Below, one piece after another: positions 6,233 through 20,287 of a stretch of DNA of 64,000 nt. The first letter of the stretch is position 1; each line of letters begins with the position of its first letter. The notes under the pieces are model-generated. The model saw only the letters and a program-made list of their open reading frames with translations, was not told where the DNA came from and made no database searches. Source of the DNA: Bauldia sp. (GTDB lineage: Bacteria; Pseudomonadota; Alphaproteobacteria; Rhizobiales; Kaistiaceae); the NCBI GenBank assembly GCA_020849325.1, contig JADLGL010000009.1, forward strand, positions 17,810 through 81,809, read 5' to 3'. The position numbers and the translations under genes were made by a program.

Positions 6233-6492
6233 CTAGAAGTCCATGCCGCCACAGGAAGTCGGCTGTTGCCGACTTCCCAAGCAAGAAGCATGGGCGGCCC
6301 GGGGGCCGGCCATCTGAACCTAGAAGTCCATCCCGCCACAGGAAGTCGGCTGTTGCCGACTTCCCAAGCAAGAAAGCATGGGCGGCCCGGGGGCCGGCCA
6401 TCTGAACCTAGAAGTCCATCCCGCCACAGGAAGTCGGCTGCTGCCGACTTCCCAAGCAAGAAAGCATGGGCGCCCCGAACCTTGCAGTTGGA
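6233..6492 (-). repeat. Three tandem 85-88 bp units copied from the groEL stop-codon region
   Basis: Units begin at 6233, 6320 and 6408, and the genuine groEL end begins at 6493, giving periods of 87, 88 and 85 bp. Each unit starts (plus strand) with CTAGAAGTCCATSCCGCC, which is the reverse complement of the last codons and stop of groEL (GGMDF-stop). Each then carries a perfect 10-bp-stem hairpin (GGAAGTCGGC-tgtt-GCCGACTTCC, or tgct) and a GC-rich segment GGCGGCCCGGGGGCCGGCC. Units 1 and 2 are almost identical; unit 3 diverges at its right end. The array lies in the groEL 3' untranslated region before the terminator at 6178-6201. Confidence 0.9.
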
Positions 6493-14688: not shown

Positions 14689-14717
14689 TTGCCGCAAAAC
14701 GCGCCATTGCCTAAAAT
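14689..14717 (+). promoter_or_regulatory. Predicted sigma-70 promoter of the lipoprotein gene
   Basis: TTGCCG (14689-14694) is separated by exactly 17 bp from TAAAAT (14712-14717), 77 bp upstream of the lipoprotein ATG. Both hexamers are good matches to TTGACA/TATAAT. Confidence 0.6.
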
Positions 14718-18837: not shown

Positions 18838-18941
18838 CACGCATCTCTCCGCCAACCGGCGCGATTTGTGCGCCGGGGCGGCGCGGGAATCCAGCGCAGC
18901 CGGGCAAAAAATGCTGGCCCCGCCGGGCGCGGACCGCAGTT

Positions 18942-18977
18942 ATTTACACCCGTGTAAATTTACACTATAGTGTAAAT
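18942..18977 (+). promoter_or_regulatory. Double palindromic operator overlapping the promoter of the TetR gene
   Basis: Two adjacent palindromes share a base: ATTTACAC-CC-GTGTAAAT (18942-18959) and the perfect 20-bp ATTTACACTATAGTGTAAAT (18958-18977). The first holds a -35 TTTACA (18943-18948) and the second a -10 TATAGT (18966-18971), separated by 17 bp. The predicted start then falls at about 18978, which is the A of the ATG. Binding of the TetR product here would block its own promoter. Confidence 0.82.
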
Positions 18978-19550
18978 ATGAGCCCGAGCCGAACCGAACG
19001 ATCCCGTTCGCTGATCCTCGACGCCGCGGACGCGCTGTTCCGGGCGCGAGGCATCACGGCCGTCTCGGTCGAGGAGATCGCCCAGGCCGCGGGGCTGACG
19101 CGGAAGACGGTGTACAATCTCTTCGCCGCCAAGGAGGCGATCGCGCTTGCGCTGGTGGCGCGGGTGGAGGCCGGCGACGCCGGCTACCGCGCCCGGATGG
19201 CGGCCGGCGACGACGCCCGCACCCTCCTCGAAACCGTGTTTCTCGACAGCGCCGGCTGGTGCCTCGCCAATCCGGCGCTGGCGCGCATCGCGCTTGCGCC
19301 GCCGACCCCGCCGTCACTCGAGCCGCCGGAAGGGCGGCCGTCCTTTCAGCGGCTCGTGACGGACATACTCCGCCTCGGCCAGGCGGAGGGCACCATCCGG
19401 CGGGACGAGGACGCAGCCTTCATGGCGCTCGTCCTTCTCGGCGCCTACGCGCAGGCAATGCTCGCCATGCTCGGCGGCGGCCGTTTCGGTGCCGCCGACA
19501 TCAGCCACCTCCTCCGCCTCGTCGTCGAGGGCATCGGCGAACGACCGTGA
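18978..19550 (+). CDS. TetR/AcrR family transcriptional regulator
   Basis: The 190-residue protein has the TetR N-terminal helix-turn-helix: LILDAADALFRARGITAVSVEEIAQAAGLTRKTVYNLFAAKEAI. The C-terminal ligand domain is Ala/Leu-rich and family-unspecific. The start ATG directly abuts a perfect palindrome, with no room for a Shine-Dalgarno sequence, and the predicted transcription start coincides with the ATG, so the mRNA is likely leaderless. Negative autoregulation through the two palindromes is inferred. The stop overlaps the next gene (GTGA), a DUF4336 protein, which is therefore a likely regulated partner. DUF3422, divergent on the other side, could also be a target. Confidence 0.9.
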   Translation: MSPSRTERSRSLILDAADALFRARGITAVSVEEIAQAAGLTRKTVYNLFAAKEAIALALVARVEAGDAGYRARMAAGDDARTLLETVFLDSAGWCLANPALARIALAPPTPPSLEPPEGRPSFQRLVTDILRLGQAEGTIRRDEDAAFMALVLLGAYAQAMLAMLGGGRFGAADISHLLRLVVEGIGERP

Positions 19551-20287
19551 GCACGCTTTCGGAGCCATCGCACATGCCATCACACGATGCCCCTGCAGGG
19601 CTGCCGGTGCCGTTCGGGCCGGAGATATGGACCGTCGCCGGCCCTCCGATCACCGGCATGCTGCGGTTCGTCTACCCGACCCGGATGATCGTCATCCGTC
19701 TTGGCGATGGCGGGCTTCTGCTGTGGTCGCCGGTTGCGCTGACCGAGGCCGGTGCCGCCGGCGTCGCCACGCTCGGCCCCGTCCGGCATCTCGTCGCGCC
19801 GAACACGCTGCACTACAGCTTCATCGCCGATTGGCATCGCCGCTATCCGGCGGCGCTGGTCCACGCCCTGCCGCGGCTTCGCGCGGACCGTCCCGAAGTG
19901 CCGCAGGGCCCCACGCTCGACGAGGCGTCACAGCCGTGGGCCGGAGAGATCGACCAGGTGCTGATGCGCACCCGGATCGCCGACGAAATGGTCTTCTTCC
20001 ACCGCACGAGCGGGACGGCGATCTTCACCGACCTCCTGCAGAACTTTCCAACCGACTGGTTCCCGGGCTGGCGCCGGATCGTTGCGCGGTTCGACCTGAT
20101 GCTCGGCGACGAGCCCCGCGTGCCCCGGAAATTCCGTTTGGCCATCACCGATCGCGGCGCGGCGCGAACCGCGATCGGCCGAGTGCTTTCATGGCCGGTC
20201 GAGCGCGTGCTGATGGCGCACGGAGAACCGGTCACGACGGGCGCGGCAGAGTATCTCCGCCGCGCCTTCGCATGGCTCAATGGCTAG
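19547..20287 (+). CDS. DUF4336 domain protein (metallo-beta-lactamase-like fold)
   Basis: The frame opens at a GTG overlapping the TetR stop (GTGA), giving 246 residues; an ATG at 19574 (MPSHDAPAG) would give 237. The core GPEIWTVAGPPITGMLRF, then LLLWSPVALTEAG, LVAPNTLHYSFIADWHRRYP and VFFHRTSGTAIFTDLLQN match DUF4336, a family distantly related to metallo-beta-lactamases in which most metal ligands are lost. The enzyme activity is unknown. Translational coupling to the TetR gene suggests it is part of the response governed by that regulator. A gap of 235 bp follows, holding only a short hairpin of the CCTCGCCC/GGGGAGG type. Confidence 0.82.
   Translation: MSTLSEPSHMPSHDAPAGLPVPFGPEIWTVAGPPITGMLRFVYPTRMIVIRLGDGGLLLWSPVALTEAGAAGVATLGPVRHLVAPNTLHYSFIADWHRRYPAALVHALPRLRADRPEVPQGPTLDEASQPWAGEIDQVLMRTRIADEMVFFHRTSGTAIFTDLLQNFPTDWFPGWRRIVARFDLMLGDEPRVPRKFRLAITDRGAARTAIGRVLSWPVERVLMAHGEPVTTGAAEYLRRAFAWLNG

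Follow-up and report, generated by a model that had tools for sequence, protein, structure and literature searches.

A conserved operator-promoter element at the start codon of a predicted leaderless, autoregulated TetR-family gene in Bauldia

We asked whether a TetR-family gene in a 64,000-nt stretch of a Bauldia genome (hereafter the window) could be transcribed from a promoter that lies inside its own operator and starts the mRNA at the first base of the start codon. The gene (18978..19550, + strand) encodes a 190-residue protein carrying a TetR_N DNA-binding domain at residues 13-59 (PF00440, 49.4 bits against a cut-off of 24, E 3.9e-13), which identifies it as a TetR-family regulator. An in-frame start further upstream was considered and rejected: there is no nearby upstream ATG, GTG or TTG, and M1 does not vary among the aligned orthologues. 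The ATG at 18978 is the predicted leaderless start.

Operator sites, promoter and start codon are packed into 38 bases. Palindrome 1 (18942..18959, no strand assigned; half-sites H1 and H2) reads ATTTACAC-CC-GTGTAAAT, with 8-bp arms and a 2-bp centre, and its H1 half-site is also the -35 element. Palindrome 2 (18958..18977, no strand assigned; half-sites H3 and H4) is ATTTACACTATAGTGTAAAT, a perfect 20-mer that abuts the ATG. The inner arms of the two are joined in a perfect central palindrome (H2+H3; 18952..18965, no strand assigned), GTGTAAATTTACAC. Within this element lie the -35 hexamer TTTACA (18943..18948, + strand) and the -10 hexamer TATAGT (18966..18971, + strand) of the predicted tetR promoter, 17 bp apart, from which the usual rule places +1 at 18978, the A of the ATG. 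No Shine-Dalgarno (SD) sequence precedes that ATG (anti-SD pairing +0.1 kcal/mol). The original prediction had described this promoter inside two palindromes, with a start at the ATG itself and no SD; each of these elements is present, and the best-scoring register across orthologues, described below, agrees with the predicted start.

The element stands out from its surroundings. TTTACA-17-TATAGT is the sole promoter-like site between 17.0 and 21.5 kb (1 found against 0.3 expected) and the sole + strand site in the window scoring 10/12, ATTTACACTATAGTGTAAAT is the window's sole perfect 20-bp palindrome, and positions 18940-18977 are its most AT-rich 38 bases (26% GC versus 70%). Among nine further TetR-family genes in this genome, none showed a comparable leaderless promoter at its likely start (best 7/12, with an implausible start).

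Two further features were seen elsewhere in the window. At 14689-14717, a promoter-like site, TTGCCG-17-TAAAAT, has its predicted start near a GTG and may give another short-leader transcript. At 6233-6477 an 88-bp unit is repeated in tandem (2.8 copies, 97% match), and each unit begins with a copy of the putative last groEL codons (minus strand, MDF-stop) and holds a hairpin, AGGAAGTCGGC..GCCGACTTCC.

Is the arrangement conserved? By scanning genome contigs and searching about 1,250 alphaproteobacterial genomes as well as plasmids, we obtained 31 orthologue loci at 56-70% identity. The window's elements are kept, gapless and at an equal distance from the ATG, in 26 further distinct orthologue sequences from Devosiaceae, Rhizobiaceae, Rhodobacterales and Caulobacteraceae, giving with the window a gapless alignment of 27 distinct upstream sequences from three orders. 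One more locus (L007), cut short by a contig end and lying outside the 27, has matching last half-sites. All 27 have the ATG at a constant position and none has an SD (mean anti-SD energy 0.0, minimum -3.3), the AUG start without SD that characterizes leaderless genes. Positions -35 to -30 relative to the ATG, palindrome 1 and the H3 and H4 half-sites of palindrome 2 are conserved. The conserved operator unit comprises four half-sites, TTNACA, GTRTAA, TTAYAC and GTRTA (GTRTAA/TTAYAC type); the central pair, with consensus GTRTAAAWTTAYAC, is the best conserved, and the outer pairs have centres of 2 and 4 bp. Four half-sites therefore describe the operator better than two palindromes do, and the perfect 20-mer is peculiar to the window.

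If the site were read by a repressor alone, equivalent half-site positions should vary alike. By Fisher tests, which treat related sequences as independent yet compare positions within the same sequences, they do not: position -31 (the C of TTGACA) is C in 25 sequences and T in 1 (25:1), whereas its equivalents at -24, -15 and -6 are near-even C/T or G/A mixtures (p 0.0008-0.002 versus -31); position -29, immediately beyond the -35 hexamer, is relaxed, in contrast to its fixed equivalents in the remaining half-sites (p 0.0001-0.003); and in the middle of palindrome 2, A occupies -11 in 23 of 27, with no conservation at the mirror position, -10 (p 0.0002). Position -7 is T in 26 of 27. Operator symmetry is thus broken in the leftmost half-site and in the middle of palindrome 2, at the positions where a sigma-70 promoter would demand it. 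When all -10 registers and spacers were scored over the 27 sequences, the best was a -10 at -12 with a 17-bp spacer (mean 7.7/12, with A2 and T6 in 23/27), which puts +1 at the A of the ATG. Some orthologue -10 hexamers are far from consensus (for example CATTGT and AACTGT), which leaves room for an activator or a second start.

We weighed three other readings of the site. In the first, which we consider unlikely, transcription from another promoter gives tetR a 5' leader, short or long. That promoter could, for example, use a TATAC hexamer ending in T, C or A slightly farther upstream, or it could precede the operator; the mRNA would then be translated without an SD, and the operator would act as a roadblock. 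Several orthologues do have a TATACT-like hexamer just upstream of the proposed -10, and leadered genes without an SD are common in Caulobacter (PMC4117421), but the TATACT-like register has neither a normally spaced -35 nor a conserved T at the sixth position, and the leaderless register scores best. No other upstream promoter-like site for tetR was found in the 17.0-21.5 kb scanned, and in a leadered mRNA the palindrome hairpin would extend as far as the AUG.

A second reading, which we regard as very improbable, holds that the palindromes serve mainly to control a divergent gene and that what looks like a tetR promoter results incidentally from an AT-rich operator. The half-sites can be read from either strand, selection on the divergent gene could by itself conserve a shared regulator site, and in all other species the DUF4336 gene described below runs divergently, frequently behind a good SD. 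Yet the departures from symmetry fit promoter positions in the tetR direction, and a search of the operator for a promoter serving the divergent gene gave no register above 5.7/12. Moreover, in the window DUF4336 is gone from the divergent side, yet the operator and the tetR promoter are intact, and the promoter scores above the orthologue mean (10 versus 7.7). The last reading, chance palindromes in an AT-rich patch, might draw on the perfect 16-18-bp palindromes at other window positions, but it is refuted, chiefly because 27 distinct sequences from three orders keep the site without gaps and also because the site is single in each genome with zero reversed-control matches, and it retains next to no probability.

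The site counts behind this last point also bear on the reach of the regulator. The complete operator occurs in one copy per genome, at this tetR gene, in 12 of 12 genomes, and the reversed control pattern had zero matches. A search of the window's genome for a second copy with up to 3 mismatches returned none better than control level, and in the genomes that hold it the central palindrome (H2+H3) was found at the tetR locus only. With one site per genome in 12 genomes, control would be local.

What, then, might the regulator control besides itself? Downstream of tetR lies a gene for a DUF4336 protein (19547..20287, + strand; PF14234, E 1.3e-14), presumed to be co-regulated. The original prediction had placed it under shared control through a 4-bp overlap with tetR. 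The overlap of the tetR stop with a GTG in the DUF4336 frame (GTGA, 19547-19550) is indeed present, but it is specific to the window, and translation may not begin at the GTG. The in-frame ATG at 19574, which follows a GGAG at a distance of 9 nt, is just as good a candidate, fits orthologue N-termini better and may be the true start.

In all 30 orthologue loci testable (those with upstream sequence), a DUF4336 gene is linked to tetR and divergent across the operator; these proteins are 48-58% identical to the window's DUF4336, and the divergent start usually lies about 50-67 nt from the tetR ATG, often with an SD. These distances fall within the rule for divergent TetR-family targets, under 200 bp (PMC3511530). 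The window alone has DUF4336 downstream and co-directional, with a DUF3422 gene as divergent neighbour. The best evidence for presuming DUF4336 to be the target is that either arrangement would leave it and tetR under a single operator. On parsimony, 1 locus against 30, the window's gene order would be derived from the divergent pair; a tree test of this did not place the window with support.

The structure predicted for DUF4336 (pLDDT 81) is a match to hydrolases of the metallo-beta-lactamase fold, with Foldseek E values of about 1e-10 to VIM-2 and 2p97, but an HxHxDH zinc motif was not found in an alignment of eight relatives. DUF4336 would be a noncanonical metallo-beta-lactamase-fold protein. 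Two more distant DUF4336 proteins from the same bacterial family (L061 and L062, 38-41% identity) are unlinked to an orthologue of this TetR gene. In a full-text literature search, DUF4336 was mentioned in only two papers, and in the title or abstract of neither.

The closest known system is acuR-acuI-dddL of Rhodobacter sphaeroides. The acuR gene, of the TetR family, has a 5' RACE end exactly at the AUG and no SD, its inverted-repeat operator over the promoter was tested by mutation, it leads an operon with its targets, and its authors note a like layout in other taxa (PMC3017554). The window's locus shares the TetR-family gene in first position, the target downstream (presumed here), the operator overlapping the promoter, the missing SD and the conserved layout; the start at the AUG is mapped in acuR and predicted here. 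The two differ in that AcuR has a single inverted repeat, TAATAGAC-n6-GTCTATTA, as its operator, whereas the window site has four half-sites, and in that the acuR target enzymes are known whereas the partner here is DUF4336, divergent in most species. Membership of the AcuR subfamily was rejected: NCBIfam NF051457 gives 15.2 bits against a cut-off of 247, over the HTH only, and the downstream gene is DUF4336 rather than an acuI-like gene.

More distant parallels are Tn1721 tetR and lambda cI, repressor genes whose leaderless mRNAs are translated from a 5'-terminal AUG (PMC3017554, PMC4965119); the likeness is that of repressor genes, while operators and targets are unrelated and lambda CI is not a TetR-family protein. 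The orthologues, with their short shared operator, resemble divergent TetR-family/target pairs (PMC3511530), from which the co-directional window pair differs. Leaderless mRNAs number 171 in S. meliloti and 375 in C. crescentus; a literature search for a transcription-start map of any orthologue-carrying species found none. With these experimental precedents the mechanism is not new, and the tetR gene here is a well-supported, conserved further case in a subfamily distinct from AcuR. The 26 further orthologues, the promoter-specific asymmetry and the acuR precedent all favour the leaderless, autoregulated TetR gene with fused operator, promoter and start codon that was originally predicted. 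Its added idea, that regulator binding and leaderless initiation are mechanically linked, contributes little: binding over the promoter would block transcription, and a leaderless start is a mode of mRNA translation.

Very probably, then, 18942-18977 is a combined operator and sigma-70 promoter for a leaderless tetR, whose product would repress tetR and DUF4336 until a ligand releases it. Alongside the architecture, conservation, SD absence, single-locus operator and partner linkage seen in sequence and comparison, we infer a start site, binding, repression, a ligand and a dimer number as follows. RNA polymerase would use TTTACA/TATAGT and start transcribing tetR at the A of its ATG, and the resulting leaderless mRNA would be translated through recognition of its 5'-terminal AUG. 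The product, probably as two dimers on the four GTRTAA half-sites, would cover the -35, spacer and -10 and sterically repress transcription of its own gene and of its DUF4336 partner; ligand binding would release it and relieve repression. DUF4336 would be transcribed the opposite way across the shared operator in most species, and on a shared transcript downstream of tetR in the window's genome.

More broadly, we lean towards a two-gene module of a TetR regulator and a noncanonical metallo-beta-lactamase-fold DUF4336 protein, patchy in Alphaproteobacteria, in which promoter and four-half-site operator would have been co-optimised base by base with the leaderless start, and in which the divergent pair would have become an operon in this lineage with the operator intact. 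The locus offers a clean, conserved case of operator, promoter and start codon as one element. It would be useful for testing why regulators favour leaderless translation, with its low, SD-independent synthesis, and it names a candidate regulator and operator for a DUF4336 gene.
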